In this document: positions 24,281 to 39,980 of the stretch, piece by piece | How positions within the stretch are numbered: position 1 is the first letter of the stretch | How the letters are laid out: every line of letters begins with the position of its first letter | Source of the DNA: Chloroflexota bacterium | GTDB taxonomy: Bacteria > Chloroflexota > UBA11872 | Assembly: GCA_022821905.1 (NCBI GenBank) | Contig: JAJECS010000020.1 | Location: 62,001-126,000, forward strand | Direction of reading: 5' to 3' | DNA: 64,000 nt | Translations under genes and position numbers: made by a program | Notes under the pieces: model-generated | What the model was told of the DNA's origin: nothing | What the model saw: the letters and a program-made list of their open reading frames with translations, nothing else | Database searches by the model: none

Positions 24281-24955
24281 TTAGCCCGCGCCGTCGCCGG
24301 CCGGCTGCGCGTCGTCCGAAGCCGCCGTTTCCGACTCCGATGCCAGGCTCGCCGCCGGCGCGGCCTTGACCAGGGTCGGACGCAGCACCCGGTCCTGCAT
24401 GCGGTAGCCGCGCTGCAGCTGCTCGGCCACCGCCATCGGACCGTCGCCGTCGTCCGACATCACCACCTCGTGAATCGCGGTGTCGATGGAGTCGCCGCGT
24501 TTGCACTCAATGGGCGTGACGCCGTGTGCCTCGAGCACGCCCAGCAACTGAGCCTGGGTCAGCGCAATCCCGTCCACCCAGCTCAGCAATCGCAGCTCGC
24601 CGGGCAGCGTCTGGAAGGCGCGTTCGAAGCCATCGATCACTCGCAAGATGTCAAACGCGATCGCCATGTTGGCGAATAGGGTGCGCTCCTTCGCGTCGGC
24701 CTCGGTGCGTCGCCGGTAGTTGGCGAAGTCGGCCTGAACCCGCGTGAGTCGATTGAGCACATCCCGATGCCTTCGCTCGAGATCGGGCGCATCGCCGGTC
24801 GTCGACTCGGACGATCCGGCCTCGGTCGGTGGCTGATTCTCGATGCCCGACGCCGCACGGCGATCAGTGACGCGAATGGTCGGGCGATCGTTGTCGTCGA
24901 CCCGCGGCGCCTGGTCCTCCGGCGCCTCCGGTTCACGAGGTTCGGCGTCGGCCAT
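24281..24955 (-). CDS. grpE: Nucleotide exchange factor GrpE
   Basis: 224 residues from ATG 24955. The first about 70 residues are acidic and disordered. A coiled coil starts near DLERRHRDVLNRLTRVQADF with the typical NYRRRTEADAKE, and the C-terminal β-wing region has GVTPIECKRGDSIDTAIHEV and LQRGYRMQDRVLRPTLVKAA. GrpE releases ADP from DnaK. It is first in the grpE-dnaJ-prmA-HIT operon. Neither hrcA nor a CIRCE inverted repeat was found in the 151 bases upstream, so heat control must differ or lie elsewhere. Confidence 0.94.
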   Translation of the reverse strand: MADAEPREPEAPEDQAPRVDDNDRPTIRVTDRRAASGIENQPPTEAGSSESTTGDAPDLERRHRDVLNRLTRVQADFANYRRRTEADAKERTLFANMAIAFDILRVIDGFERAFQTLPGELRLLSWVDGIALTQAQLLGVLEAHGVTPIECKRGDSIDTAIHEVVMSDDGDGPMAVAEQLQRGYRMQDRVLRPTLVKAAPAASLASESETAASDDAQPAGDGAG

Positions 24956-25106
24956 GCCTATCGGTTCTCCCCAGTGCTTCCGTGAGCAGCGGCCCTCGGG
25001 CCTCGTACCTTCAGCCCAGGCATTATCCATGCCCGTGCGCAGCGGAGTCTTGAATCAGAGATCGGCAGTGGAGCCGCAAGAATTCGCCGGCCGGCGCCGC
25101 CGACCG

Positions 25107-27899
25107 CTATTGGCCGTCTCGTGGAATTCTGACTTCGCCCGGCACGACGACAAAATCCGCGCGGCTCACGGCCTGGTCACCGACGAGAACCTCAACGCTC
25201 CATTGCCCCGCGGCGGCGGTTGGCGGAAGGAAGAACCAAAAGCCGTACGTCGCCCGCGGCGAGGCTTCCACCGGATCCGTGAGGAAGCGGCCGATCTCGC
25301 GACCTCCCGCATTCCAGCGAATCCCGAGGCGCGTCCCCCCCACGATGTCGGTGAATTCGATGGAAATACTCACCCGCTCGCCGGGGTGGAATTGCAGCGT
25401 GGGCTCCACCGGTCGTTGGGCCGCGTCGAGATCGAGCGCCAGCGTCACGGATTCGATGGCGGCCGACTCGTTCGTGGCCGCCTCGATGGTCGGCGTCGGC
25501 GTCGGCGTCGCCTCCTCGTCAGCCTCCGGTGTTGCTTCCGCCTCACCGGTCGGCGTTGGCGCGGGCTCCGTGGGCAGCGGCTGACCGGGCGGGGCAATGC
25601 GCCACACGATGCCTCGTCCCTCGAGCAAGTAGATGCTTCCGTCGTGGGCGATCGCGATGTCGATGGCGGTGAACAGTGGAATCTCGGCGGCCGGTCCGCC
25701 CGGCTGTCCCGAGCCCGTCGGGTCGCCGGCGATGACACGTGCGGTGCCACCGTCAACGGCCGTCACCGTCCCCGCCCCGCTTTCGACCACGTAGAAGCCA
25801 CCGGCGGCGTCAGCCGCAATCCCAATAGGAGCCTCGATGCGGACCGACCCCGCCGGTCCCGCGTCGGGCGCGGTGGTGTTTGACGAGCCCGCGGCAAGGT
25901 CGATGCTCCCATCGCGGCGCAATCGGCGCACGACGCCGGCTTGCAGCTGCGAGATCAGCACGTCGCCGGCTGCGTCCACCACGACGCGCTGCGGAAAGCC
26001 GACCGCTGCCGCCGTGCCCGGTCCGCCGTCGCCGCCCGAGCCAAAGTTTCCGGTGCCGGCGATCGTGACGATGGTTCCGTCGCGTTCCACGCGGCGCACC
26101 CGATGATCCGGCGCGTCGACCACGTATAGCCGTCCCGACAGATCCAGCGCCACGCCAACCGGCTCGGTGAGCGAGGCGAAGGCTGCCGGGCCGCCGTCGC
26201 CGCCTGAGCCCGGAGCGCTGACGCCGACCATCGTGCCGATCACGCCTTCGGGCGTAACCCGCCGCACGCGGAAGTTGCCGGCGTCGGCGATGTAGAGCGC
26301 GCCTTGCGCGTCGACGGCGACGTGGTGCGGGCGGTTCAGCTGCGCCGCCGTCGCCAGGCCGCCGTCGCCCAAGAATCCCGGACTGCCGTTCCCGGCCACG
26401 GTCCACACCGAGCCGTCGAGCTCAATGCGCCGGATCCGGTGGTTGCCGGTGTCAGCGACGAGCACGCGCCCAGCACTGTCCACGGCGATGCCGCGCGGCG
26501 TGGTGAATTGGGCGTCCGCCCGCGCGCCGCCTTCGCCGTCATAGCCCGGTTCGCCGTGGCCCGCGAACACCTCGGCAATCAGCTCCGCCGCGACCGGCGG
26601 CGGCAGCGCCTGGGACGGAGCCGGCGGCTGATACGGCGGAGCCGCCGGCGCTTCGGGCTCGGCGGGAATCTGTGCAATGGGCACCAGCGCCCGCAGCCGG
26701 CGCGTGCCCTGTTCGACCACGAGCAATTCACCACGCGTGGTCACCGTCACGTCGGCCGGCAGCTCCAACCTGGTGTCAACGGCCAGGCGTCCGGATGCCG
26801 ACGGCTGTTCCACGTCACCGGCGATCGTGCTGATGCCGCCGCTGGAGTCGATGCGACGGACGCGCCGATTGTTCCAATCCGCGACAAACACGTTGCCATC
26901 GGTATCCACGGCCACGGCCTGCGGCCCGTGAAGCTGGGCGCTGACCGCCGAGCCGCCGTCGCCCCCCATCCCGGGCTCTCCGGTCCCGGCGAGCGTGTGG
27001 ATGGCTGCCACGCTGCTTTGACCGGATACACGACGAATCCGGTTCCCGCCAAGCTCGGCAATGAGGATGTTGGCAAAGGCGTCGACTTCCACGTCGACCG
27101 GCTGATTCAATTGCGCGTTCGCGGCGGCGCCACCGTCGCCCGCGCTGCCGGGGATGCCGGTGCCGGCCATGGTGGTCACCACGCCGTCAGGCCCGATGCG
27201 GCGCACGCGGTGCGCCGCGCGTTCGGCGATGAACAGCGTCCCCTCCCCGTCCAGCGCCATGCCGGCGTTGCCCGCCAGGCGGCCCAGGCTCGCCGGCCCC
27301 CCGTCGCCCTCGAGTCCCGGCTGCCCATCGCCAATGACCGTGGTAATCGTGCCGTCCAGCGCCACCCGTCGAACTCGATGCAGCTCCGCGATGAGCAGGA
27401 CACCGGCGCCGTCAACCAGCAGACGGGTCGGCTCGGTGAGCTCGGCCTGCGTCGCGGGTCCGCCGTCGCCCGCGGACCCCCGTATGCCTGTGCCCGCCAC
27501 GGTCTGAATCACACCGTCGGCGCCGATTCGCCGCACGCGATTCGCCTGAGGGTCCGAGATGTAGACCCGACCCTGCGGATCCACCGCCACACCGCCGATG
27601 CTTCGGAACTGCGCCAGCGCGGCCGGCTGCCCGTCGCCGGCATCGCCGAATTCGCCGCTGCCGGCGAGATCAATGACGACGAGCGGGAGTTGCACGGTCG
27701 GCGGCAAGCTCGACACGGCGAGCGGGAGATAGGGCCTCGCGACCGGCGGGTCGGTCCGCGCAGGCTCCGCGGTCTGCACCGGATCTTGGCCGTCGCCAAA
27801 CCCGGCGAAGTCGCATCCCGTGGCCGCAAGGGCCGCCGTGGCGCCCACGAGCATCTGCCGCCGCGTCAAGCGACGCCTTCGCCGGGTTCTACGCCACAT
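25107..27899 (-). CDS. Double NHL-repeat β-propeller lipoprotein
   Basis: 930 residues. The N-terminus has a twin-Arg-rich signal ending in ALAATGC, a plausible lipobox. Two arrays of NHL repeats follow, each repeat reading roughly AVDxxGxVxVADxxNxRVRRI then xxTVAGTGxxGxxGDGGPA. They are split by a Pro-rich linker (PAPSQALPPPVAAE) near the middle, so two propellers of about five to six blades are likely. A Thr/Pro linker (ATPTPTPTIE) then leads to a C-terminal β-sandwich of about 120 residues. It overlaps the sugar transferase gene by 11 bases and closes the polysaccharide operon. Ligand unknown; glycan or protein binding at the cell surface is inferred. Confidence 0.85.
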   Translation of the reverse strand: MWRRTRRRRRLTRRQMLVGATAALAATGCDFAGFGDGQDPVQTAEPARTDPPVARPYLPLAVSSLPPTVQLPLVVIDLAGSGEFGDAGDGQPAALAQFRSIGGVAVDPQGRVYISDPQANRVRRIGADGVIQTVAGTGIRGSAGDGGPATQAELTEPTRLLVDGAGVLLIAELHRVRRVALDGTITTVIGDGQPGLEGDGGPASLGRLAGNAGMALDGEGTLFIAERAAHRVRRIGPDGVVTTMAGTGIPGSAGDGGAAANAQLNQPVDVEVDAFANILIAELGGNRIRRVSGQSSVAAIHTLAGTGEPGMGGDGGSAVSAQLHGPQAVAVDTDGNVFVADWNNRRVRRIDSSGGISTIAGDVEQPSASGRLAVDTRLELPADVTVTTRGELLVVEQGTRRLRALVPIAQIPAEPEAPAAPPYQPPAPSQALPPPVAAELIAEVFAGHGEPGYDGEGGARADAQFTTPRGIAVDSAGRVLVADTGNHRIRRIELDGSVWTVAGNGSPGFLGDGGLATAAQLNRPHHVAVDAQGALYIADAGNFRVRRVTPEGVIGTMVGVSAPGSGGDGGPAAFASLTEPVGVALDLSGRLYVVDAPDHRVRRVERDGTIVTIAGTGNFGSGGDGGPGTAAAVGFPQRVVVDAAGDVLISQLQAGVVRRLRRDGSIDLAAGSSNTTAPDAGPAGSVRIEAPIGIAADAAGGFYVVESGAGTVTAVDGGTARVIAGDPTGSGQPGGPAAEIPLFTAIDIAIAHDGSIYLLEGRGIVWRIAPPGQPLPTEPAPTPTGEAEATPEADEEATPTPTPTIEAATNESAAIESVTLALDLDAAQRPVEPTLQFHPGERVSISIEFTDIVGGTRLGIRWNAGGREIGRFLTDPVEASPRATYGFWFFLPPTAAAGQWSVEVLVGDQAVSRADFVVVPGEVRIPRDGQ

Positions 27900-29298
27900 C
27901 GCCCCGCATCACAATTCGCAGTGTGCGCATCAGAATTCGGAGATCGAACAGCAAGGACCAGTTTTCCACGTAATACAGGTCATAGCGCGTGCGCTCGTCG
28001 ATCGACGAATTGCCGCGCAACCCATTGACCTGCGCCCAGCCGGTCATCCCGGCGCGCTCACGGTGACGGACCATATAGCGAGAATACTCGCGCTCGAACT
28101 GGCGCACGTAGGAAGTTCGCTCCGGCCGTGGGCCCACAAGGCTCATGTCCCCGCGAATGACATTGATCAGCTGTGGCAATTCATCGATCCAGTAACGCCG
28201 GAGCACGCGGCCTACGCGAGTGATCCTTGGATCGTTCGCAACGGTCCAGGTCTGGCCCCTGAGCTCCGCGTCGCGGTGCATCGTCCGAAACTTGATGATC
28301 GGAAATCGTCGCTGATCGCGGCCCACGCGCTGCTGGACATAGAACACGGGACCGGCCGAGTCCAAGCGGATGGCCAGCGCAACCAGCATCATCGGAATCG
28401 ACAGCATGACCATTCCGAACATAGCGCCCGCGAGGTCCAGCGAGCGCTTGGTCAAGCGGCTCAGCCCCTGGAGCCGAACCTCGTTGACGGCCATCAGCGG
28501 CAACCCGCGAATCCCGCCCGTGGTCACCGGCGACACCATCAGCTGAAACAGGTCCGGCAGCAACCATACGTCGGTAAACGACGCCTCGGTCTGTTCGAGA
28601 ATGCCAAGCAGCGCGTCGTGCGAGAGCGAGGGGATCGCCACCACCACCTTGTCGACCTGGTGCTCGCTCAGGACGCCGGCCAGCGAGTCCACGCGACCGA
28701 GCACCGGCACTCGATGGCCGCGCGCGGTCACCGACGTGGCGAAGTCGTCCACCAAGCCGACCACTTGGAATCGCCGCGTGCGCTCGTCGAACAGCCGCGC
28801 CAGCACCTCGGTCCCCTCGGTTCCAGCGCCCACGACGATGACGCGCGTGACCCCGATGCCGAAACGATTGAGCGCCTGCCGCACCCCGATGAGCAGCGAT
28901 CGTCCGACAACCACCAGCACAATGCCGCTCAGCCACATGTACGCCACCAGCAGGCGCACGAATTCGAGCCGATCCTGAATCACGAAGAACGTGGCGGCCA
29001 CCGTGAGCAGCGCGCCGACGGTGACAGCCCCGGCCGCTCGCACAACCCGATCCAGCGGACCTGCCGTGCGATGCCGCGTGTAGAGGCCGAGGGCGAGCCC
29101 GGCCAGGACGCTCGCAACCGTGAATGTGAGGTTGACCGGCACGAAGAAGAGAAACCGGTTCGACGCCAATTCGGGTCCCCACCCCAACCGGAATCGCACG
29201 ACGTAGGCAATGGCGGTCGCCGCGAGCAATGCCGCAATGTCCAAGGCCACCGTTCCCGTGGCCTCGAGTCCCTCCCAGTTGCGTCGAAACCAGGTCAA
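27889..29298 (-). CDS. Polyprenyl-phosphate sugar-1-phosphate transferase (WbaP/EPS type)
   Basis: 469 residues. Four to five N-terminal membrane helices (for example ALDIAALLAATAIAYVV) are followed by a Rossmann-like segment VIVVGAGTEGTEVLARL (near residue 155). The C-terminal catalytic bacterial sugar transferase domain starts at KRSLDLAGAMFGMVM and has FPIIKFRTM, INVIRGDMSLVGPRP and RAGMTGWAQVNG. Such enzymes load the first sugar-1-phosphate onto undecaprenyl phosphate. It overlaps the GT2 gene upstream by four bases. The sugar cannot be told from sequence. Confidence 0.92.
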   Translation of the reverse strand: MTWFRRNWEGLEATGTVALDIAALLAATAIAYVVRFRLGWGPELASNRFLFFVPVNLTFTVASVLAGLALGLYTRHRTAGPLDRVVRAAGAVTVGALLTVAATFFVIQDRLEFVRLLVAYMWLSGIVLVVVGRSLLIGVRQALNRFGIGVTRVIVVGAGTEGTEVLARLFDERTRRFQVVGLVDDFATSVTARGHRVPVLGRVDSLAGVLSEHQVDKVVVAIPSLSHDALLGILEQTEASFTDVWLLPDLFQLMVSPVTTGGIRGLPLMAVNEVRLQGLSRLTKRSLDLAGAMFGMVMLSIPMMLVALAIRLDSAGPVFYVQQRVGRDQRRFPIIKFRTMHRDAELRGQTWTVANDPRITRVGRVLRRYWIDELPQLINVIRGDMSLVGPRPERTSYVRQFEREYSRYMVRHRERAGMTGWAQVNGLRGNSSIDERTRYDLYYVENWSLLFDLRILMRTLRIVMRGDVA

Positions 29299-30185
29299 CT
29301 CACGGCCCCCTTGCGACGACCCCGCGCCAACAGTTGACGTACCACTTGGCGGGCAACCGCGCCAAGTGCCAGGGTGAAAATCGCGGCCGTGACGACCGCC
29401 CGCAGCCAGAGGCCGTCACGTTGCCGGTGCTTTCGATAGTAAAGCCAAATGGCTCGATAGAATTCCACCCGCGCCCGGACGGCGCGCTGCCGCGTCGACT
29501 GCCGCTTGAGGTGCCGCACCACGACCGACGGCACAAAGAGGGTCGGCCAGCCCGCCTGTCGAATGCGAAATCCCAGGTCCAGGTCTTCGCCGTAGGTAAA
29601 GAACTGCGGATCGAAGCCGCCGACCCGGCGAAAGGCCTCGGCGCGCACCAGCATGCACGCGCCGGAAATCGCGTCCACCGTCGCCTCGCTTCTCGACGAC
29701 GGTGCGACGTTATAGGGCCGCACGCCGCGCGGCGGCAGGCTGCGCGGCCAACGGAGCAAGCGCAATGCCGCGGAGGCAGGCGTCGGAAATGTGCGACACG
29801 CCGCCGGATCCAACGATCCATCGGCCAACTCGAGCCGCGGACCCAGGATGCCCACTGCGGGATCGGCATCGCCGCGCTCCACCAGGCGCCCTACCGCGAG
29901 CGGCGTGAGCTCCGTATCGGGATTGAGGAACAGCAACCAGCGTCCCTGAGCCCGCGAGGCGGCGAGATTGTTGCCCCGGCCGAACCCCAACTCGCGGCTG
30001 CCCCGAATCGCCTGCACGTCGGCCCGCGACACGATGCTGTCCCAGGTGCCGTCGCCGGCGCCGTTGTCCACCACGAAGACCTCAGCCGACAGTCCATCGG
30101 TCGATTCCGGAATGGTCGCCAGGCATCGCCGCAGGAGGTCGGGCACGTTGTAGGTGACGATGATGATCGAGACGTCCACGGTCAT
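29295..30185 (-). CDS. Family 2 glycosyltransferase (rhamnosyltransferase-like)
   Basis: 296 residues. GT-A fold: VSIIIVTYNVPDLL at the N-terminus, VVDNGAGDGTWDS, the DxD-equivalent LNPDTEL (residues 87-93) and the acceptor motif FTYGEDLDLGFRIRQAGW near residue 205. A C-terminal hydrophobic stretch (AVVTAAIFTLALGAVARQVV) probably anchors it in the membrane. It adds a sugar to the lipid-linked glycan (inferred). Four-base overlaps on the downstream side tie it into the operon. Confidence 0.88.
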   Translation of the reverse strand: MTVDVSIIIVTYNVPDLLRRCLATIPESTDGLSAEVFVVDNGAGDGTWDSIVSRADVQAIRGSRELGFGRGNNLAASRAQGRWLLFLNPDTELTPLAVGRLVERGDADPAVGILGPRLELADGSLDPAACRTFPTPASAALRLLRWPRSLPPRGVRPYNVAPSSRSEATVDAISGACMLVRAEAFRRVGGFDPQFFTYGEDLDLGFRIRQAGWPTLFVPSVVVRHLKRQSTRQRAVRARVEFYRAIWLYYRKHRQRDGLWLRAVVTAAIFTLALGAVARQVVRQLLARGRRKGAVS

Positions 30186-30189
30186 CGTC

Positions 30190-31116
30190 CTAGCCTCTCA
30201 GCCGACGCCAACAGCCCGCCGCATAGCCCGACATCTTGGCCGCGTCGCCGACGAGCCGCACGAGCGGGACGAGGGCGGGCGCGGCCCCTCCGCCTCCGGG
30301 CATCCCCCGCGCCCGAGCGATCGGGCGGCGCAGATATCGATAGCCCAGAAATGCGAGCAGCGCGGTGCGGACCCAGGTTGGCCGGCGCGCAAGCGACAAC
30401 CCCACGGCGTAGGCCGCGAAGCGCGCGGCGTGGCGCTTTCCGAGCATGCCGGCCCGGCCATCGCCCCATGCGTAGTGAAAATACTGGCGGAAGAAGGCTG
30501 GCAGGCTCGACCGCGGTCGATTCCACACGTCGGCGCCCGGAGCGTGGACGAACCAGCCGCCCTCGGCCCAGATCCTCCGATCGAGCCACAGGTCTTCGCC
30601 ATAGTCGAGCCATTCGGGATAGCCGCCGACTTGATCGAACCACTGCCGCCGCAGCAGCACCGAGCCGCCGCTCGGAGGATAGTGCGCCGGATCGATCTCC
30701 CGCGCGATTGGAAGGCCCACGGCGCCAATGGCCGTTTCGACCGTGTTGCCGGACGCGGCCAGGATGTAGCCAAATGTCCCGGCGGCGAGCGGCTCCCGCT
30801 CCGCGGCCTCCACCAGCGAATCGAGCCAGCTCGCCGACCGGCTGATCCCCGCATCGGTGAACGCGATCAGGTCGGACGTCACCGAGCGCGCCGCCAGGTT
30901 GCGACCGGCGGAAATGTTGCTGCCGTGCGCGTCGATGACCTGGACGCCGTCCATGCCGGCCAGGGCCTCCCGCAGGATCTCGGCCGTCCCGTCGCTCGAT
31001 CCGCCGTCGACGATCACCAGTTCATCCGGCGCCCGCCGCTGCGACCGAAGACTCTCGGCCAACGCTTGGGCGTCGCGGGCCTCATTGAGGACCGTCGCGC
31101 AGACGGCCACCGTCAT
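30190..31116 (-). CDS. Family 2 glycosyltransferase
   Basis: 308 residues from the ATG at 31116. GT-A features: VAVCATVLNEARDAQALAES, IVDGGSSDGTAEIL, LIAFTDAGISRSASWLDSL (FTDAG in the DxD position) and YGEDLWLDRRIWAEGG. The C-terminus has a positively charged segment and a weak hydrophobic helix. The open frame continues for 160 codons upstream without GT similarity and overlaps the next gene, so this start was preferred; it overlaps the upstream GT4 stop by four bases. Confidence 0.86.
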   Translation of the reverse strand: MTVAVCATVLNEARDAQALAESLRSQRRAPDELVIVDGGSSDGTAEILREALAGMDGVQVIDAHGSNISAGRNLAARSVTSDLIAFTDAGISRSASWLDSLVEAAEREPLAAGTFGYILAASGNTVETAIGAVGLPIAREIDPAHYPPSGGSVLLRRQWFDQVGGYPEWLDYGEDLWLDRRIWAEGGWFVHAPGADVWNRPRSSLPAFFRQYFHYAWGDGRAGMLGKRHAARFAAYAVGLSLARRPTWVRTALLAFLGYRYLRRPIARARGMPGGGGAAPALVPLVRLVGDAAKMSGYAAGCWRRLRG

Positions 31117-32321
31117 TCCCGGCCTCCTGCCCGCCCCGAATCTCGCAGGCCGCCGTGCACGTCCAGCAGCGCCTTGCCCACGACCGCCGGCGCATGGTGC
31201 TCGGCGACGTAGGCGTGACCGCTTCGCCCCATCTCGTGCCGCCGCGCATCGTCCTGCAGCAGATTGGCGATGGCGTCGGCAAACTCCGAGGCCGAGTCCG
31301 CCGCGGCAATGCCCGCGAGCGACCGCGCCAGCCCGGCAAGCCCGGAGGCTTTGACCACCACGGGGCGCGCCTGGGCAAGGGATTGCAGCACTTTGAGCGG
31401 CGCCCCCGACCCCACCGGCGCGGGCGAGGTGCTCAGCCAGGCCTTCCGCTGCTCCGTCTCGAATTCTTCGACCAGACCGCCAACGCTGCACCGCGCCGGA
31501 GCAATCGCGCGCAGGCCCAGCGACCCCGGACCCACCACTCGAAGCTCGGCCTCCGGCACGCGTCGCAGCACGGCGGGCCACACGGCGCCGAACAGCCATT
31601 CAGCCCCCAGGATGTTGGGACGGTAGGCGAAATTGGCGGCCAGCAGCACGCGCGGCCGGTCGGATTCGTGGGCGGCGCCGGGCGGGTCCGCCGGCACCGG
31701 AACCGGATGCGGGATCGCCGCCACCGAGCGATTGCCGAGCGTCGCCAGGGATGCAGCGTCGGCCGCCGACGAGGCGGCCACGGCATCGGCCGCACCCACG
31801 ACCCACCGCTCGACGTCGTGCAGCAGCGCCGCCTGCCGCCGCGAGTGCCAGGCGCGTGCGCCCCGCGCGAGATTGGCGAGCTGGCTCTGTAGACGCCACT
31901 CCACATTGTGTGCGTCATAGACCACGGGCGGTCGTCGCCGCTCGCCTTCGGTGCAGGCGGCCACGTCGTGCACGATATGCGCCAGCTGCAAGCCCTCCAC
32001 CTGCACCGCCTCGACTCCGCCGGCGCTGAGACGCTGCTGCACCGCGACCCGAAGCTCCGGCGTGCGGTGGCGAAACACAAGATCGGGCGCAGGCCCAACC
32101 GCGGCGTTGGCCAGGCGTCGCCACAGCGGCGCCCGCCGCAGGCGGACGACGGTTGTACTGCGCGCATCGGGGTGCGGGCGCACGCGCTCCCGCGCGCCGG
32201 CAAGGGTCACCACGTCAACCTCGTGCTGCTCGGCAAGCGCCGTGACGAACGCGCTGTTGCGCACCGCCGCGCCGTGCGTCGGCGGCCAGGGGGCCGATGG
32301 CGTGACGACGAGGACGCTCAC
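31113..32321 (-). CDS. Family 4 glycosyltransferase, GT-B fold
   Basis: 402 residues. It starts MSVLVVTPSAPWPPTHGAAV, the Gly-rich acceptor loop, and carries VVYDAHNVEWRLQ near residue 140 and VLLAANFAYRPNILGAEWL. The donor side reads GSGAPLKVLQSLAQARPVVV, where most relatives have K-x-LE-x-MA; the conserved Glu is replaced by Gln here, so activity may be altered. Similar proteins occur in exopolysaccharide clusters. It overlaps both neighbours by four bases. Confidence 0.83.
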   Translation of the reverse strand: MSVLVVTPSAPWPPTHGAAVRNSAFVTALAEQHEVDVVTLAGARERVRPHPDARSTTVVRLRRAPLWRRLANAAVGPAPDLVFRHRTPELRVAVQQRLSAGGVEAVQVEGLQLAHIVHDVAACTEGERRRPPVVYDAHNVEWRLQSQLANLARGARAWHSRRQAALLHDVERWVVGAADAVAASSAADAASLATLGNRSVAAIPHPVPVPADPPGAAHESDRPRVLLAANFAYRPNILGAEWLFGAVWPAVLRRVPEAELRVVGPGSLGLRAIAPARCSVGGLVEEFETEQRKAWLSTSPAPVGSGAPLKVLQSLAQARPVVVKASGLAGLARSLAGIAAADSASEFADAIANLLQDDARRHEMGRSGHAYVAEHHAPAVVGKALLDVHGGLRDSGRAGGRE

Positions 32322-33379
32322 GTGAGGCGGTCGTAGACCGAGAAGGTGGCCGTGGCGGCCCGCGCCCAGGAGAACTCCGCGGCTCGCTCGCGTCCGGCTG
32401 AGCGCAGTCTCTCGCTCAGCGACGGATCGCCAACGACCGTATCGATCGCGTCCGTCAGCGCCTCGGGATCCTGCGGATCGACGTACTGCGCCGCGTTGGC
32501 CGCTACCTCCCGCAGCGCGCCAATGTCGGAAACGACGCAGGGCGCCCCGGCCCGCATAGCCTCCAGCACCGGCAACCCAAACCCTTCGTCAAGCGACGGC
32601 TGCAGCAACAGGCTCGCATGCCGATACAGCCGTCCCAGCATCGCGTCCGACACCGAGCCGATGAACCGCACTCGCGCCCGGGGATCCAGCGACCTCACGG
32701 TTCGCACGATATCTACGCCCTGATAGCCAAGGGCGCCGGCAACCAGCAGCGGCATGGCGCGCGCGGCCTTCGAGCGCACCCACGCCCGCGCGGCATGCAC
32801 GTGATTCTTGCGGGGTTGCAGCGTTCCCACCATCAGGGCATAGCCGTTTCGGGGCGACGTGGAATCGGCAGCCGCATCCAGCGCCGTCGTGGGGGCTTCG
32901 TGAATCACGCTGATCCGGTCGCCGGGAACCAGTCCCCGCTCGACGAGCTGGTCCCGGACGTGCGCGGACACGGTGATGACTTGTGACGCCCGCGAAAGCC
33001 GCCGGCTGGCGGCGCGGTAGAAGTCGAGGCTCCGCGGCTCGTAGGACGCCGGATGCGTCAGGAACGACACGTCGTGCACCGTCACCACACTCGGCTTCCG
33101 CACGCCCGGAGGCAAGGCATGGTCGGGAAAGTGGGCCGCCCCGAAGGTCCGCAGCCCCCAGGCCAACGTCGTCCGTTCCAGGCGATGCCGCGCCGGGGCC
33201 GGCGCGGATCGGACGGGGAGCGCCGCGCCACGGTGTTGGCGGTCGCGCGGATCGAGCAGGAGCGTGACCTCGTGTCTCGGGTCGTTGAGGTCGGCCATCG
33301 CCTGCTGGAGTTCCCAGATATAGCGGCCGATCCCCGCGCGATCGCGATGCAGCATCCGGCCGTCGAGAGCAACGCGCAC
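32318..33379 (-). CDS. Family 4 glycosyltransferase, GT-B fold
   Basis: 353 residues from a GTG at 33379, which directly follows the stop of the upstream gene. N-terminus VRVALDGRMLHRDRAGIGRY matches the mannosyltransferase-like GT4 start. PSVVTVHDVSFLTHP and GYALMVGTLQPRKN follow, and the retaining EX7E motif is intact in LDEGFGLPVLEAMRAG. It probably transfers a hexose from a nucleotide sugar to the growing repeat unit. The frame is open further upstream but overlaps the membrane protein gene. Confidence 0.87.
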   Translation of the reverse strand: MRVALDGRMLHRDRAGIGRYIWELQQAMADLNDPRHEVTLLLDPRDRQHRGAALPVRSAPAPARHRLERTTLAWGLRTFGAAHFPDHALPPGVRKPSVVTVHDVSFLTHPASYEPRSLDFYRAASRRLSRASQVITVSAHVRDQLVERGLVPGDRISVIHEAPTTALDAAADSTSPRNGYALMVGTLQPRKNHVHAARAWVRSKAARAMPLLVAGALGYQGVDIVRTVRSLDPRARVRFIGSVSDAMLGRLYRHASLLLQPSLDEGFGLPVLEAMRAGAPCVVSDIGALREVAANAAQYVDPQDPEALTDAIDTVVGDPSLSERLRSAGRERAAEFSWARAATATFSVYDRLT

Positions 33380-33380
33380 G

Positions 33381-34697
33381 TCAGGGGCTGCGGCGAACGA
33401 CCGCCAGCGTGGCGCCCACAAGAGCGCCGCCCAGCACGGCCAGGTGCTGGAAGCTCGCCAGGTGGTGGTCGACCATCGAGGCGGCGAGCAATGCCGCCAG
33501 CCCCGCCGCGCACGCACGCGCCATGGGGTCGCGACGCACGAAACGGACGGTGCGAGCCAGCGTGGCAACAACCACGCCCAATGCCGTCGCCGCCGCGAGC
33601 ACTCCGGCGCGCTCCGCGATCCACAGCCAGGTATTCGATACACCGACAAACACGTCCACGTCGGGCGAAGCGCCGTAGCCCACGCCGAACCAGGGATACC
33701 GACCGATCACGCGGGCCGCCTCCTGAAGCTCGCCCAGCCGCAGGGCGTCGGAAAGGTCGCGCTGCACCACCGCCGCACGAATCGCCTCCCCCAGCCCCCC
33801 CGGCCACGGCACGATCAGCCCAAGCGCACCGGCCAGTGCGAGCCCGGCGCCCAGTCTCGGGCGTGTGCTCGCGATGACGACGAGTCCCGCCACCGCGGCG
33901 CCCACCCAGGCGCCCCGCGACAGCGTGAGCATGAGCGCCGCCGCGATCAGACCAATGGCCGTCGCCTGGAGCGCAAACCGACGCGCGGACCCGGTGCAAC
34001 CAACCATCGCGAACGGCAGCGCCATGGCCAGCGTGACGCCCAGCACGTTCGGATCGACGAGCAGCCCCGTGGCGCGCGGCGTGATCTCGTCGGGCAAGAA
34101 CCGCTGAATGTCCGAAGCTGGATAGCCCGCCGGCGACAGCGCCGCCAGAAACCGGATGCCGGCGTCGCCGGCCAGGTGCACCGCCACGGCCAGCGCCGCC
34201 TGGACTGCCGCGGCGCCGACGATCACCAGTTGCCCGTGGCGGGCGATTGACGACCGAGGCAGCCACATCACCACCAGCAGCGGGACCGTCGCGGCCATCG
34301 CCAGCTTGAGGCCCGTCTGCAGCGCCTCGAAATCCCGGTTGATGGGCAAGGCGATCCCCGTGGACAGGAGAATGAGCAGCAGATAGAGACCCTGGACGAT
34401 CAGGATTCGGTCTCGGGAAAGCGATCGGCTTCCTCGGACAACGGCCAGCGCCGAGGCGCCGATCAGGAGGGTCAGCAACACGGCCACGACGGGCGGCTGG
34501 GCGCCCACGCGCACCGGCACGATCACGAATGGCGCCAGGATCGCCAGGGCAATCAGTCCGCCCAGCCCGAGGGCGGGCCGCCGCACGGCCGCGATGGCGC
34601 CGACGACCAGGACGCCGCCGGAAATCGCGGCGGCTGGTTGCAGGCGCGCGGCCATCCACCCCGCCAGTCCGGCGGTGAGCGCCACTGCCGTCGCCAT
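33381..34697 (-). CDS. O-antigen ligase/polymerase-like membrane protein (Wzy_C type)
   Basis: 438 residues from ATG 34697; a GTG near 34742 is an alternative. About ten to eleven membrane helices are visible, for example LGGLIALAILAPFVIV and LALAGALGLIVPWPGG. The signature cytoplasm-distal loop contains RYPWFGVGYGASPDVD followed by SNTWLWIAERAGVL, the pattern of WaaL/Wzy-family proteins. ATGLLVDPNVLGV and LTLSRGAWVG are further family hallmarks. It would polymerise or ligate lipid-linked glycan units outside the membrane. No Wzx flippase gene was found beside it. Confidence 0.82.
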   Translation of the reverse strand: MATAVALTAGLAGWMAARLQPAAAISGGVLVVGAIAAVRRPALGLGGLIALAILAPFVIVPVRVGAQPPVVAVLLTLLIGASALAVVRGSRSLSRDRILIVQGLYLLLILLSTGIALPINRDFEALQTGLKLAMAATVPLLVVMWLPRSSIARHGQLVIVGAAAVQAALAVAVHLAGDAGIRFLAALSPAGYPASDIQRFLPDEITPRATGLLVDPNVLGVTLAMALPFAMVGCTGSARRFALQATAIGLIAAALMLTLSRGAWVGAAVAGLVVIASTRPRLGAGLALAGALGLIVPWPGGLGEAIRAAVVQRDLSDALRLGELQEAARVIGRYPWFGVGYGASPDVDVFVGVSNTWLWIAERAGVLAAATALGVVVATLARTVRFVRRDPMARACAAGLAALLAASMVDHHLASFQHLAVLGGALVGATLAVVRRSP

Positions 34698-34726
34698 CAC
34701 CCACGGCGCTCGTCGGGCAGCTGCTC

Positions 34727-35674
34727 CTAGTCCAGCAGCGACCACACGTATGCCTCGCTGACCGTACGGGCTCGCTGGCGACGTCGACGCTTGCGCAGGG
34801 CGCGGCCCAGCTGCGGGATCGCCGCCAGCTGACCGTTCAGGGTTGCCCGCGCCGCGCGACCCTGGAAGTTGCGCAGCGCGTCGAGCGCGATTTGCCCCTG
34901 GGCTCGCAGCATGGACCACCACCGGCGGCGCATCACGAATCCCGGAACATTCATCACCGTGACCAGCGGTCGGTTGCGTCCAACCAGAAAGCTCTCGAAC
35001 TCGCTCGTGGCGCTCGCGCCGCGGCGGTGCCGCACGCGCGCCGTCGGGACGTAGCGACAGCGGTGGCCGGCAAGCTGCGCCCGCCAGCTCAAGTCCACGT
35101 CCTCGCAGTACATCATGAGGTCTTCATCCAGCCCGCCCACCGCGTCGAACAGCGATCTGCGGTAGGCCGCGGCGGCGGCGCACGCGCCGAACACTTCGCG
35201 CGGCTCGTCAAAGTCCGCGCCGTCCCGCTGCCACACGCCACGATTGCCCGGCAGCCCGCTAGCCGTGAAGAAATCTCCGGCGGCGTGCAACCGGTCCGGC
35301 GTCGCGTAGAGCAGAATCCGCGAGGCCAACATGCTGGCGTCCGGATGCTCGTCGAAGGTTCGATCCAGCTCGCCCAGCCACTCAGCCTCGGGCACCGCGT
35401 CGTTGTTGAGGAACGCGATGCGCTCAGCGCGCGCAATGGCCAATCCTTGATTGATCGCGTGCGCCAGGCCGCGTCGATGGGCAAGCTCGACGGAGACTAC
35501 GTCAGGTCGGTGCTCCCGCAGCCAGTGGCACGTGTCGTCGTCGGACGCGTCGTCGACCACGATGGTCTCGAATTCCCGCAGCGTTTGCCGGCTCAGCCCG
35601 TCCAGCGCCTCGGCCAGGAGGTGGCGGCCGTTCCACGTCGGGATCACGACGCTCCAGCGCGGCGCGTCAGCCAC
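34727..35674 (-). CDS. Family 2 glycosyltransferase (rhamnosyltransferase-like)
   Basis: 315 residues from a GTG at 35674 that overlaps the rfbD stop by eight bases. GT-A motifs: WSVVIPTWNGRHLLAEALDG, IVVDDASDDDTCHWL, IAFLNNDAVPEAEWLGEL and YCEDVDLSWRAQLAGHRCRY. The frame is open further upstream, but those residues are antisense to rfbD and lack similarity. A basic C-terminus (LRKRRRRQRAR) suggests peripheral membrane contact. With RmlD next to it, an L-rhamnose-type donor is possible but unproven. Confidence 0.86.
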   Translation of the reverse strand: MADAPRWSVVIPTWNGRHLLAEALDGLSRQTLREFETIVVDDASDDDTCHWLREHRPDVVSVELAHRRGLAHAINQGLAIARAERIAFLNNDAVPEAEWLGELDRTFDEHPDASMLASRILLYATPDRLHAAGDFFTASGLPGNRGVWQRDGADFDEPREVFGACAAAAAYRRSLFDAVGGLDEDLMMYCEDVDLSWRAQLAGHRCRYVPTARVRHRRGASATSEFESFLVGRNRPLVTVMNVPGFVMRRRWWSMLRAQGQIALDALRNFQGRAARATLNGQLAAIPQLGRALRKRRRRQRARTVSEAYVWSLLD

Positions 35675-36530
35675 GATCAGCCACCCACTGCCGCACGAAC
35701 TCGTCGAGCGCGTCGTGCCAGGGCCGCAGCGTGATGCCCACCGCTCGCGCCATCTCGTTCGCCAGCTCGCTATTCGCCGGAACGCGCGCCTCGCGCGGGT
35801 ATTCCTCGGCCGAGATTTCTTCGAGCGGCACGTCCTCGCGCCCGGCGGCGCGCAGCACGGCGGTCGCCCAGCCATACCAGCTGGTCGCCCCCTCATTGAC
35901 GAGGTGGTGCACCCCGTACGCCTGGGTATCGATGAGTCGCAGAATCGCCGCCGCCAGGTCGCCCGCAAACGTCGGGTTGGCCACCTGGTCGCCCACGTAA
36001 CGCACGTCGGACGCGGCGTCGGTCAACTCCAGCAACCGGGCCACGAAGCCCCGGTTCCACCGGCTGTACACCCAGCTCGAGCGCACGACGTAGAGCCGGT
36101 CCAAGGCCTGGCGGGCGGCGCGTTCGCCGCCGAGCTTGCTCACACCGTAGGCGTTGATCGGGCCGGGCTCGTCGTATTCCCGGTACGGCCCCAGCTTGTC
36201 GCCCGCGAACACGTAGCTGGTGCTCAGATGCACCATCGCCGCACCGGCGCGTGCGACGGCGCGTGCGACGTTCCAGGCGCCCACGACATTCACCCGTTGC
36301 GCGGCGCCCCGATCGCGCTCACAAGCCTCGGGATTGGTCATCGCCGCGGCATGAATCACCACGTCGGGCTGAATTTCGTCCAGCGCGCGGTCCATCGCCG
36401 CGCCGCTCGTCACATCCAGGGCGCTGCGTCCCAGCGCCCAGACGCTTGATTCATCAAGTCGCCGCGCAAGCTCGATGCCAATCTGGCCGCCGCCGCCGGT
36501 GATGAGGATGCGCGGCGGACGGCTAGCCAT
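35667..36530 (-). CDS. rfbD: dTDP-4-dehydrorhamnose reductase-like (RmlD) SDR
   Basis: 287 residues from ATG 36530. N-terminal NADP motif ILITGGGGQIGIELARRL, then PDVVIHAAAMTNPEACERD, LSTSYVFAGDKLGPYREYD and the catalytic YGVSKLGGE with Tyr and Lys; PTFAGDLAAAI and VHHLVNEGATSWY also match RmlD. The enzyme makes the last step to dTDP-L-rhamnose in a typical pathway. RmlA, RmlB and RmlC are absent here, so they must be elsewhere or the product is another deoxysugar. Confidence 0.85.
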   Translation of the reverse strand: MASRPPRILITGGGGQIGIELARRLDESSVWALGRSALDVTSGAAMDRALDEIQPDVVIHAAAMTNPEACERDRGAAQRVNVVGAWNVARAVARAGAAMVHLSTSYVFAGDKLGPYREYDEPGPINAYGVSKLGGERAARQALDRLYVVRSSWVYSRWNRGFVARLLELTDAASDVRYVGDQVANPTFAGDLAAAILRLIDTQAYGVHHLVNEGATSWYGWATAVLRAAGREDVPLEEISAEEYPREARVPANSELANEMARAVGITLRPWHDALDEFVRQWVADRG

Positions 36531-36735
36531 CGAACTCGGGATCGTCACTCCGGCTGAATGTGAGCGCCACGCTGAGTCCCGCAATGGCAATCGCCACGGC
36601 GCTCAACCCGAGGTATTGCCAGACGTCAAGCTCGCGACCCAGGGACACGACAAGAACCAATGCAACGAAGACGGCGGACATTGCGGCCCAGGCCACAAGG
36701 CGCGGATGCCGCGACACCTGGCGAAGAAGCTTCAT
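36523..36735 (-). CDS. Small two-helix membrane protein heading the polysaccharide operon
   Basis: 70 residues: MKLLRQVSRHPRLVAW, then a hydrophobic helix WAAMSAVFVALVLVVSL, a short polar loop RELDVWQ, a second helix YLGLSAVAIAIAGLSVALTF and an acidic C-terminus SRSDDPEFDG. The stop overlaps the rfbD start by eight bases (ATGGCTAG), the same coupling used along the operon, which supports a real gene. No family recognised. Its upstream 102 bases also carry the divergent miaB start. Confidence 0.65.
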   Translation of the reverse strand: MKLLRQVSRHPRLVAWAAMSAVFVALVLVVSLGRELDVWQYLGLSAVAIAIAGLSVALTFSRSDDPEFDG

Positions 36736-38172: not shown

Positions 38173-38177
38173 CGGTT

Positions 38178-39980
38178 ATGGAGACCACCGCTGGCCGGCG
38201 CGTGCTGACGCGGCGGAAGGCTCTGGCGGCCATCATGATTGGCGGTGGCGCCGTCGCCTGCGGTGAGGCGCAGCCCCGACCGCTCGCCGTGCGATTGCGA
38301 CCCTACTGGGAACCGGCCCTCGAGGTCGCGACGGGATCGCTCGATGTGCTGCGGGCGCTGGCGATCAATTCCAACGCATTCGCCCGCGGGTCCCTGTCGA
38401 CCGGCCAGTATCTGTTGAGCATCGAGGCGCAATTGCCGTCGATTTCCGCGCTCTCCCAACAGGTCATCCCGCTGGGTCCGGCGCCGGACGACCAGGCCAC
38501 CCATACGTCCCTGGTAACCATGGTGGACGCCCTGGTCGAAATCGGCCCGACCGTCCGCGGCTACCGCGAAACGGAGCAGCCCGAGCGGCTGATGCACCTG
38601 GTGACACTGCAGCAGCGGGTGCGCGAGCGACTTGGCGCGTTCATCGAGGGCATCGGGCCGGGACTGGCTCAGGACGGACTGCGAGCACGGCTGGACGCCA
38701 TCGGCGAGTCGACCATCGAGGCGTGGCGCGTGCGCAAGCGCGCCGTGCTGGTCGGCCCCTACCAGGACGAGGCCGCCGCGCGCGCCTCGCTGGCCCACAT
38801 CGTCGACGACCTGCGCCTCTCGCACACCAACCCCGGGTGGGTCGAGGTTGGCCGCTTCGCCGACGCAGCCGCCGCCGACGCCGCCGCGGCCGAGTGGCTG
38901 GCTCGCGGCGTGCAGGTCCGCGTCGAGGACGTCGTCGACCTCACCTTCAACGTGACCACGCTGCGCGCGCCCGAGCGACAATCCTGGCGCGAGCTGCTGT
39001 GGCTGGAACGGCTGGATTTCGATCCGACCGACCTGGCCGCCTCGGAGCTCGGGCAGCAGGTCGTCGCCGTGGCTCGCGCGGGCAAGGTGGCGTCATTCGG
39101 CGCGGACGGCGGCCTGCGCTGGACACGCGACATGCGCATGCCCCTGGCGCGAGTGTCGATGCAACGGCACGGCGATCTCCTTGCCGTTCACGGGTTTGAC
39201 GTGCAGTTGCTGAGCCTCGAGGGCAACCAGGTTTGGCCATCCCCGTTTCGGCCAGACAACCAGCTCCTGGAGCAGGCCCTGTTCGATGACGAGGGCGCCC
39301 GGCTCGTCGTTCGCAGCACGAACGCCAGCGGCGTCGGACGTGTGTTTGCCTTCAATCGGCAGGGCCAGGTGTGGGGTCCGACCAAGAGCTACATCTCGGC
39401 CGCGTCGGTGGACCTCGACAAGCGCAGCGGCACCGTGGCCGTGGGTTCGTCCAATCGCGGCGAGAACCAGGTCGTGCTGATCCGTCCCGACGGCAATCTC
39501 GAGCAGCGCTTCGGCGTCGATGGCGACATCCTGCAAGTCATCTTCACGCAGGAAGGGGACCAGGTCATCACCCTCACTAGCACCGGACTGCAAGTGTTCG
39601 AGGCCGAGAGCGCCAATCTCCGGTCGCAACTGCGGTTTCCGGCCACCGCCGCCGCTCGGGCCCCGCACGACGACATCCTCATTCTCGCCGGCGAGGCCGG
39701 CGTCGGCTCGTTCACGCTCGACGGCACCGAAGTCTGGTTTGCACCGCGCGTGCGCGCCCGTGCCGTCTATCCAATGGACGACTACGTGGCGGCGCTGGTG
39801 GATGACATGACCATCACCGTCATCCGCTCCGATGGCGCGGTGCTCGGCGACGCCACCACGCTCGCCGCCATTCGCGGCGTCGCGGTCGCGCCCGGGCTCA
39901 ACCGGCTATTTGCCGTCAGCGCCGAGCGCCAACTCCAGGCCTGGCAGCTGCCGCCGGTCGCGACCCCGCCCCAGGGCTAG
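38178..39980 (+). CDS. Lipoprotein with SPOR-like segment and C-terminal β-propeller
   Basis: 600 residues. The N-terminus has TRRKALAAIMIGGGAVAC, a Tat-like signal with a lipobox at Cys28. Residues about 30-185 are mostly helical. Around 186-250 the text AVLVGPYQDEAAARASLAHI and VEVGRFADAAAADAAAAEWL reads like two SPOR-type halves (V-x-VGxF/Y, then Ala-rich helix). From about 290 to the end come repeated strands of the PQQ/WD sort (VAVARAGKVASFGADGGLRW, GRVFAFNRQGQVWGP, LIRPDGNLEQRFGVDGDI), a seven- or eight-bladed propeller. No known function; surface scaffold or ligand binder is inferred. It lies five bases after miaB. Confidence 0.75.
   Translation: METTAGRRVLTRRKALAAIMIGGGAVACGEAQPRPLAVRLRPYWEPALEVATGSLDVLRALAINSNAFARGSLSTGQYLLSIEAQLPSISALSQQVIPLGPAPDDQATHTSLVTMVDALVEIGPTVRGYRETEQPERLMHLVTLQQRVRERLGAFIEGIGPGLAQDGLRARLDAIGESTIEAWRVRKRAVLVGPYQDEAAARASLAHIVDDLRLSHTNPGWVEVGRFADAAAADAAAAEWLARGVQVRVEDVVDLTFNVTTLRAPERQSWRELLWLERLDFDPTDLAASELGQQVVAVARAGKVASFGADGGLRWTRDMRMPLARVSMQRHGDLLAVHGFDVQLLSLEGNQVWPSPFRPDNQLLEQALFDDEGARLVVRSTNASGVGRVFAFNRQGQVWGPTKSYISAASVDLDKRSGTVAVGSSNRGENQVVLIRPDGNLEQRFGVDGDILQVIFTQEGDQVITLTSTGLQVFEAESANLRSQLRFPATAAARAPHDDILILAGEAGVGSFTLDGTEVWFAPRVRARAVYPMDDYVAALVDDMTITVIRSDGAVLGDATTLAAIRGVAVAPGLNRLFAVSAERQLQAWQLPPVATPPQG

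Follow-up and report, generated by a model that had tools for sequence, protein, structure and literature searches.

A window of 64,000 nucleotides from the genome of a Chloroflexota bacterium (lineage UBA11872; GenBank assembly GCA_022821905.1, contig JAJECS010000020.1, positions 62,001 to 126,000) carries, on the reverse strand from position 36735 to 25107, ten tightly spaced genes for a putative surface glycan, the last of which encodes a lipoprotein with two NHL propellers. Comparison with related genomes leads us to conclude that this cluster probably comprises two parts, namely a six-gene glycan core of the Wzx/Wzy type that is vertically inherited throughout the class, and a 3′ lipoprotein gene that is specific to the order and dispensable for glycan synthesis. 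On this reading, the nine genes smTM to wbaP would form the principal locus of an ancient envelope-glycan pathway, in which smTM, rmlD and GTe vary by lineage (Table 1).

The source genome, G000, is 2.95 Mb in size, and the window corresponds to G000:C15:62001-126000. Here, f1 and g1 denote the family and genus of the window, f2 the sister family in the same order, and f3, f4 and f5 further families of the class. The order was sampled with 24 genomes, and the 21 relatives with a long locus were used for synteny. Protein families were assigned by Pfam and NCBIfam profile scans; the labels prmA, HIT, miaB, hrcA, dnaK, nusG and the rpl genes were given by eye, without a family search.

A six-gene core throughout the class

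Of the 33 loci examined, 30 show the core, i.e., wzy, GT4d, GT4c, GTb, GTa and wbaP; the other three are the contig edges L121 and L158 and the genome G019, described below. In f3 and f5, ten of eleven genomes have a small gene, cysS, followed by wzy-GT4d-GT4c-GTb-GTa-wbaP upstream of hrcA-grpE-dnaJ, and neither the propeller gene nor rmlD was matched at these ten loci. The contig of one genome of this set (G024) begins inside GT4c, and in f5 a short open reading frame (ORF) on the opposite strand may sit between wbaP and hrcA. In the eleventh genome (G036), the sole grpE found lies on a 9.6-kb contig without wbaP, and wzy lies on another contig. One f4 cluster was read (G029, L168), which is intact, located away from grpE, and without the propeller. 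Because the core occurs in f3, f4 and f5 loci that have neither gene, the propeller gene and rmlD are, as judged from synteny, order-level additions to an older locus. The wzy gene itself was found in 38 of 41 class genomes (split over two contigs in G013), with one Wzy per genome; the misses are G016, G019, and G007, whose contig starts inside wbaP. Together, GTe and smTM are present at the locus in G030, G038 and G040. Nine f3/f5 loci lie on contigs long enough to show GTe, and six of them lack it at this position.

Within the order, the propeller was matched with an E-value of 1e-30 or better in 22 of 24 genomes, including all 18 with a completeness of 90% or more and a contamination of 5% or less. 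It was missed in G016, which is 76% complete and in which grpE was likewise not found, and in G023, where part of the propeller gene sits next to grpE at the end of a contig. The original prediction had proposed conserved synteny between transferase and lipoprotein as a check, and this was borne out: wbaP adjoins the propeller gene in 20 of 21 order relatives, the exception being G019. The full order from smTM to the propeller gene is common to all six genus genomes. The three f2 clusters lack GTe at the locus, and that of G020 also lacks rmlD. On its other side, the propeller gene has grpE (in G006 and G020, hrcA) directly downstream at every locus whose contig extends far enough, G019 included. 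The cluster is thus real rather than a chance assembly: its order is kept in 6/6 genus genomes and largely beyond, and its genes are under purifying selection.

Two further observations concern the cluster. The cysS gene lies upstream of wzy in genus g2 and in f2 wherever the contig reaches, and had no match in g1 (0/6). It encodes 110-130 residues of unassigned family (L133:4399-4731, L154:5647-6021), is kept in most class loci read, and has a CxxC motif in f3, f4 and f5, which the proteins read from the window's order do not have. Separately, GTa and wbaP are adjacent in 22 of 35 loci scanned (L038-L051, L054, L056, L057, L060, L061, L074, L080, L086). Because these loci are mostly labeled Chloroflexota, the pair seems to predate the class.

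Vertical inheritance and purifying selection

For 24 taxa, a tree built from all six core genes and one built from dnaJ-grpE-prmA agree in 18 of 21 splits; the trees took in 25 of the 33 loci examined, and some of their nodes are poorly supported. Relative to dnaJ distances, the Spearman coefficients of the six core genes are 0.74-0.86, compared with 0.75 for grpE and 0.68 for prmA; this comparison is without L121, L127, L129 and L130, and the value for GTe was left unused (31 loci matched, perhaps with a non-cluster glycosyltransferase). The ratio of nonsynonymous to synonymous substitution rates (dN/dS), calculated against four of the five genus relatives, is 0.07-0.24 for the ten genes: 0.07-0.09 for wbaP, 0.10-0.13 for the propeller gene, and 0.14-0.24 for GT4d, GT4c, GTb and GTa, with 0.10-0.12 for dnaJ. 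These comparisons indicate that the core is inherited vertically, like housekeeping genes.

O-antigen and capsule loci are usually swapped between strains, including wzx/wzy and the glycosyltransferases. The cluster could therefore be viewed as an ordinary, strain-variable capsule or exopolysaccharide (EPS) locus that lies beside grpE by chance; its genes are of the types expected in a normal Wzx/Wzy EPS locus, and GTe and rmlD differ between lineages. However, the order of the six core genes is the same from f1 to f5, their tree is congruent with that of the housekeeping genes, their distances resemble those of grpE and prmA, and there is one Wzy per genome. We consider this view largely refuted and very improbable.

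A lineage that lost the glycan genes and kept the propeller

The genome G019 is 96% complete and clusters with f2 in the tree, as sister of G020-G022. Its locus, on an unbroken contig without N, has lost wzy, GT4d, GT4c, GTb, GTa and wbaP. What remains is cysS and an intact propeller ORF of 730 residues, which overlap by four bases (TTGA), followed by grpE. The G019 genome has no match to GTb, Wzy or Wzx anywhere, and its only WbaP relative is a distant paralogue. The profile for RmlB, a second enzyme of the deoxysugar pathway, gave 336-392 bits in 12 of the 13 genomes tested and 138.8 bits in G019; an RmlC-family match is absent from G019, but also from G018 and G020. Because G019 lost the glycan genes and kept the propeller, the propeller can be separated from the glycan cluster. 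Together with the f3/f5 loci, this pattern suggests that the propeller protein is not needed for glycan assembly and that its role outlives the glycan.

Flippase, deoxysugar genes and a second locus

The original prediction had proposed looking elsewhere for the flippase and the dTDP-rhamnose genes. This succeeded for Wzx and RmlB, both found at other places in the genome; the RmlC-family match is weak. Wzx (PF01943/PF13440) is encoded at G000:C5:203069-204685 and has an ortholog in 40 of 41 class genomes, missing in G019 only. Among the 38 genomes in which both were found, 37 have Wzx and wzy on different contigs, and in the single-contig genome G006 the two are 0.94 Mb apart. We assign Wzx to the cluster because of this class-wide co-occurrence and the shared absence in G019; likewise, Wzx and RmlB are tied to the cluster because they are absent together with the core genes in that genome. 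In G000, RmlB scores 368.9 bits (cut-off 365.1; G000:C4:87077-88006). The dTDP-6-deoxysugar of the repeat unit is probably L-rhamnose.

The Wzx gene belongs to a second locus, which in G000 reads nusG-rplK-rplA-rplJ-rplL, three family-2 glycosyltransferase genes (GT2), one of family 4 (GT4), a PMT-family gene, and then Wzx. This arrangement was seen in 15 of the 17 order genomes viewed, G000 included; G020 and G023 are without the four glycosyltransferase genes. The run GT2-GT2-GT2-GT4-Wzx also occurs in G040 and G038 of f3, and partly in G026. Beyond Wzx come a second NHL gene and a gene for an LCP protein, as direct neighbors in g1 and at a distance of about 4 kb in g2; they were in none of the three f2 genomes G020, G021 and G022. 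The second NHL protein (L172 10977-14470, G000:C5) has 567 residues, a Tat-like signal (Tat, twin-arginine translocation) and a C-terminal part without a Pfam family. With the propeller as query, G000 gave NHL-type matches at three places: the window, the second locus, and a weak one at C7.

These data bear on whether the propeller protein is the outside arm of the pathway in this order, i.e., whether its task at the surface is to bind, guide or anchor the finished glycan. Its gene is the last of the operon and overlaps wbaP, it adjoins wbaP in 20/21 relatives, and it is under strong purifying selection. The second NHL propeller near Wzx (12 of 13 f1 genomes viewed) speaks weakly for such a role, and that NHL matches occur at both loci of one pathway would be suggestive only. 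However, core glycan genes occur without the propeller in 10/11 f3/f5 genomes, G019 has the propeller without glycan genes, no sugar-active site was identified in the propeller, and NHL propellers bind many unrelated ligands. A working part for the propeller in the glycan pathway, as the original prediction had suggested, is therefore unsupported, and we regard the outside arm as unlikely, albeit worth bearing in mind. Overall, the interpretation given in the original prediction is partly supported: an operon-like set of surface-glycan genes with the propeller lipoprotein gene last is what the data show.

Composition of the cluster

All ten genes that had been predicted are present. Nine belong to the families that had been named for them, and the tenth, smTM, has no Pfam family. 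The five glycosyltransferases comprise three of family GT2 and two of GT4, and no Wzx, Wzz or RmlABC is encoded among the ten genes, as had been stated. In the NCBIfam scan, WbaP matched TIGR03023 (undecaprenyl-phosphate glucose phosphotransferase) with 417 bits, just above the cut-off of 410.75. The description that nearly every junction overlaps by 4-11 bases is slightly generous: six of nine do (8, 8, 4, 4, 4 and 11 bases) and three do not, with a one-base gap at wzy/GT4d, a four-base gap at GTb/GTa, and an ambiguous GTe/wzy junction that is either a 19-base overlap or a 29-base gap, depending on whether the GTG or the ATG start of wzy is used. No separate promoter for the propeller gene was seen where it overlaps wbaP by 11 bases in the window, a region in which no promoter scan was made.

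Table 1. Features of the glycan cluster and its boundary in the window.
Feature	Position	Strand	Evidence and remarks
smTM, 70-residue small membrane protein, gene 1 of the cluster	36523..36735	-	no Pfam family; counterparts in the genus and at some loci elsewhere in the family, order and class
rmlD, dTDP-4-dehydrorhamnose reductase	35667..36530	-	TIGR01214, 270 bits, above cut-off; locus copy matched solely in the window's order
GTe, family-2 glycosyltransferase, lineage-variable	34727..35674	-	PF00535; in f1, G029, G030, G038 and G040; not at the f2 locus
wzy, Wzy_C polymerase/ligase-like membrane protein	33381..34745	-	PF04932, 42.4 bits (cut-off 31.7); start GTG 34745 or ATG 34697
GT4d, family-4 glycosyltransferase	32318..33379	-	PF00534
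GT4c, family-4 glycosyltransferase	31113..32321	-	PF13692
GTb, family-2 glycosyltransferase	30190..31116	-	PF00535; unmatched in G019
GTa, family-2 glycosyltransferase	29295..30185	-	PF00535
wbaP, polyprenyl-phosphate hexose-1-phosphate transferase, WcaJ type	27889..29298	-	PF02397, PF13727; TIGR03023
Propeller gene, 930-residue double NHL propeller lipoprotein	25107..27899	-	PF25021, PF01436; RR motif and lipobox at residues 12-29
Propeller 1, six blades, residues 73-407	26679..27683	-	AlphaFold2 model, PDB matches
Propeller 2, six blades, residues 442-768	25596..26576	-	AlphaFold2 model, PDB matches
C-terminal beta-sandwich, residues 831-924	25128..25409	-	AlphaFold2 model; unmatched in f2 propellers
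grpE leader, probable operon boundary	24956..25106	-	genus alignment, motif scan
grpE, first gene of the chaperone operon	24281..24955	-	PF01025; start 24955 likelier than 25030

Among known systems, the closest likeness is to the Wzx/Wzy pathway, as in colanic acid and in EPS loci with WcaJ: shared elements are a WcaJ-type transferase, glycosyltransferases, a Wzy_C protein, and a Wzx-type flippase in the genome. In contrast to that pathway, Wzx and Wzy are unlinked here, the core order is class-wide and vertical, and no Wzz is encoded in the cluster. As for Wzz and related polysaccharide co-polymerases, a weak GNVR match (21 bits, cut-off 27.7) lies beside a second wbaP at G000:C4, and no genome-wide search for them was made. 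A PEP-CTERM/exosortase EPS locus would have XrtA-associated equivalog glycosyltransferases above cut-off, whereas the matches to stp1, stp2, stp3 and EpsB_2 were all under the curated cut-offs; exosortase itself was not searched for. Usable Pfam scores were also lacking for smTM, cysS and the small beta-sandwich lipoprotein at L002. A role in anti-phage defense was rejected, PADLOC giving no match for the propeller, smTM or cysS. No non-coding RNA or tRNA was found in the window.

The type of the Wzy protein was addressed by sequence profile, which gave no solved relative (best E-value 0.11), and by the conserved columns of the Wzy family, which did not tell enzyme types apart. The Wzy_C family spans O-antigen ligases, Wzy polymerases and protein O-oligosaccharyltransferases. 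It could thus be argued that the product is an O-linked protein glycan, with Wzy_C as oligosaccharyltransferase and surface lipoproteins, perhaps including the propeller protein, as acceptors. The latter has a Pro/Thr-rich linker at residues ~770-820, between propeller 2 and the beta-sandwich, and such linkers occur in some O-glycosylated proteins. However, neither the conserved columns nor the profile search point to this enzyme type, and the fold model of Wzy failed; we hold an O-linked glycan to be rather unlikely.

The propeller lipoprotein

The propeller protein matched PF01436 with 124.5 bits and PF25021 with 177.4 bits. Its signal was examined by eye and with a regular expression. In the window, the N-terminus has an RR motif and a lipobox, TRRQMLVGATAALAATGC. 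The RR motif and the cysteine were seen in the 17 f1 propeller proteins viewed, the regular expression alone having missed the cysteine in L125 and the RR in three f1 proteins; the f2 propellers of G019, G020 and G022 have the lipobox cysteine behind a Sec-like signal.

An AlphaFold2 model was built from four sequences, one of them truncated, and has a mean predicted local distance difference test (pLDDT) of 65.5 and a predicted template modeling score (pTM) of 0.42, with blades mostly at 70-90. Both propellers are closed in this model, and a disordered linker precedes the beta-sandwich. The four f2 propeller matches stop at residues 720-780, which suggests that f1 gained the beta-sandwich later. 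A similar domain (35% identity) is found in a separate lipoprotein-like protein of ~270 residues, L002 1465-2280 (G000:C5:301162), and comparable sites were seen in further order genomes.

Among solved structures, 9ifo, which is the NHL domain of a bacterial teneurin-like protein, is nearest both in sequence (E-value 9e-77) and in fold. It aligns with propeller 1 over 326 residues, with a Z-score of 39.5, a root-mean-square deviation of 2.5, and 45% identity. Next in the fold ranking, which effectively probed the propellers only, are teneurins, NHLRC2, TRIM, PknD and the designed Pizza propellers. By itself, this likeness of fold gives no function. The PknD sensor domain (1rwi), TRIM NHL and Pizza have the same blade count and fold (Z-score 31-32 for propeller 2), but here two propellers stand in tandem on a Tat-type lipoprotein for which the Pfam scan gave neither a kinase nor a ligase domain. 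The ScyD, ScyE and ScyF proteins of scytonemin clusters also have NHL repeats, and their NCBIfam models matched here below cut-off; the scytonemin pathway is unrelated to the glycan cluster. For bacterial teneurin-like proteins, a published report predicts a surface location, and in some phyla a lipoprotein nature (PMC13018210). The propeller protein shares with them the NHL propeller and the predicted surface/lipoprotein character, but the FN-plug/NHL/YD-shell superfold was not found in it: a Pfam scan (E-value 0.01) gave no YD/RHS repeat, FN-plug or toxin domain, only propeller families and a few unrelated weak matches.

The boundary to the chaperone genes

The gene set of the original prediction ended at the propeller gene. 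Beyond it, on the same strand, are grpE and dnaJ, identified by Pfam, and then two genes taken for prmA and HIT. Depending on its start, grpE begins 76 or 151 bases past the propeller gene; the start at 24955 is likelier than that at 25030 because indels occur between the two in the genus. The leader contains an inverted repeat, GGCATTATCCATGCC (25019-25033; GGCAT-N5-ATGCC), which is kept in 5/6 g1 genomes, with one arm altered in G003, and whose pattern has a single match in the window. This repeat is a possible new operator or promoter element. In g2, a TAGAAT/TAAAAT box was seen in the ten grpE leaders viewed. Because such short elements are conserved in the grpE leader, the glycan/propeller operon probably ends before grpE.

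Control of the chaperone genes was examined using the consensus of the controlling inverted repeat of chaperone expression (CIRCE), the HrcA operator. In nine of ten f3/f5 loci, a CIRCE element with at most two mismatches is found either in the wbaP-hrcA interval or where the hrcA frame begins. With at most four mismatches, none was found in the 22 loci of the window's order (the window and L115-L135); within L115-L135, hrcA was matched in G006 and G020 only. The chaperone operon thus seems, by its sequence elements, to have changed control in the window's order. For want of a CIRCE element, heat-shock control of the propeller gene was rejected as a simple explanation.

The propeller might nevertheless belong to the chaperone side (grpE-dnaJ), or to an envelope stress response, rather than to the glycan; its gene is directly upstream of grpE or hrcA wherever the contig allows, even in G019, where the glycan genes are gone. 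The inverted repeat in g1 and the -10-like box in g2, however, hint at a separate promoter for grpE, the loci of this order are without CIRCE, and the propeller protein is exported whereas the chaperones are cytosolic. We consider this explanation improbable.

On the opposite strand, a 601-residue lipoprotein-like frame (TRRKALAAIMIGGGAVAC; window 38175-39980, +) lies downstream of miaB. It has no Pfam match and was itself matched beside miaB in most order loci, G019 included.

Proposed pathway and counter-evidence

In the pathway that we propose, WbaP would load a hexose-1-phosphate onto polyprenyl phosphate, and the glycosyltransferases would lengthen the unit, including a dTDP-6-deoxysugar made with RmlD from this locus and RmlB from elsewhere. 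Wzx, from the second locus, would then flip the unit, the Wzy_C protein would polymerize or transfer it outside, and the LCP protein encoded near Wzx may attach the glycan to the wall. The propeller lipoprotein is probably co-transcribed with the glycan genes; its lipid would hold it on the outward-facing side of the membrane, where the propellers most likely act as a binding platform.

What can be stated plainly about this pathway is its gene families, their synteny, the class-wide presence of Wzy and Wzx, vertical inheritance, and one lineage in which the core, Wzx and RmlB are missing together; for the propeller, it is the lineage limits, conservation, predicted fold and signal motif. Several observations weigh against separating a dispensable propeller from a class-wide glycan core. 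The retention of the propeller with loss of the glycan genes rests on one metagenome-assembled genome, G019, on a long branch. In the window, the 11-base overlap between the propeller gene and wbaP speaks for tight coupling, and a second NHL gene lies beyond Wzx, with the LCP gene, in 12 of 13 f1 genomes viewed (not in G016). Wzy was missed in G007, and its fold model (mean pLDDT 43.3) is unusable. The gene set is not entirely constant, as GTe, rmlD and cysS vary by lineage, so that different families may make different sugar chains. At the second locus, two genomes of f4 and one of f5 gave a match to Wzx but none to the second set of glycosyltransferases. Finally, the RmlC-family match in G000 is weak (34 bits, cut-off 27) with no other Rml genes beside it by eye, and RmlC is missing in 3 of 18 genomes, which makes L-rhamnose a probable rather than a proven sugar.

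A bolder version, which we offer tentatively as possible, holds that the product is a class-defining envelope glycopolymer of these Chloroflexota, a counterpart of wall teichoic acid or arabinogalactan that is encoded at two unlinked loci and passed on as housekeeping genes are; NHL proteins would have joined both loci in one family, and a propeller coat would have replaced the glycan in one lineage.

Implications for the Chloroflexota envelope

Chloroflexota have been described as monoderm or atypical. According to one report, genes for lipopolysaccharide (LPS) and an outer membrane are absent from the phylum, and its envelope layers are thought to consist of polysaccharide or protein (PMC13319060). 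Because the phylum is so reported, an O-antigen is an unlikely product of the cluster. In the open-licence PMC papers, we found no account of this cluster, of NHL lipoproteins encoded in clusters of its kind, or of Chloroflexota EPS genes linked to grpE, a weak negative.

The composition of the Chloroflexota envelope is not settled, and the syntenic, vertically inherited glycan core is a concrete candidate for one of its layers. The flippase of this candidate layer was identified through shared presence and shared absence. The G019 lineage represents a natural deletion of the glycan genes, but not of the propeller, so that the two parts can be tested apart.

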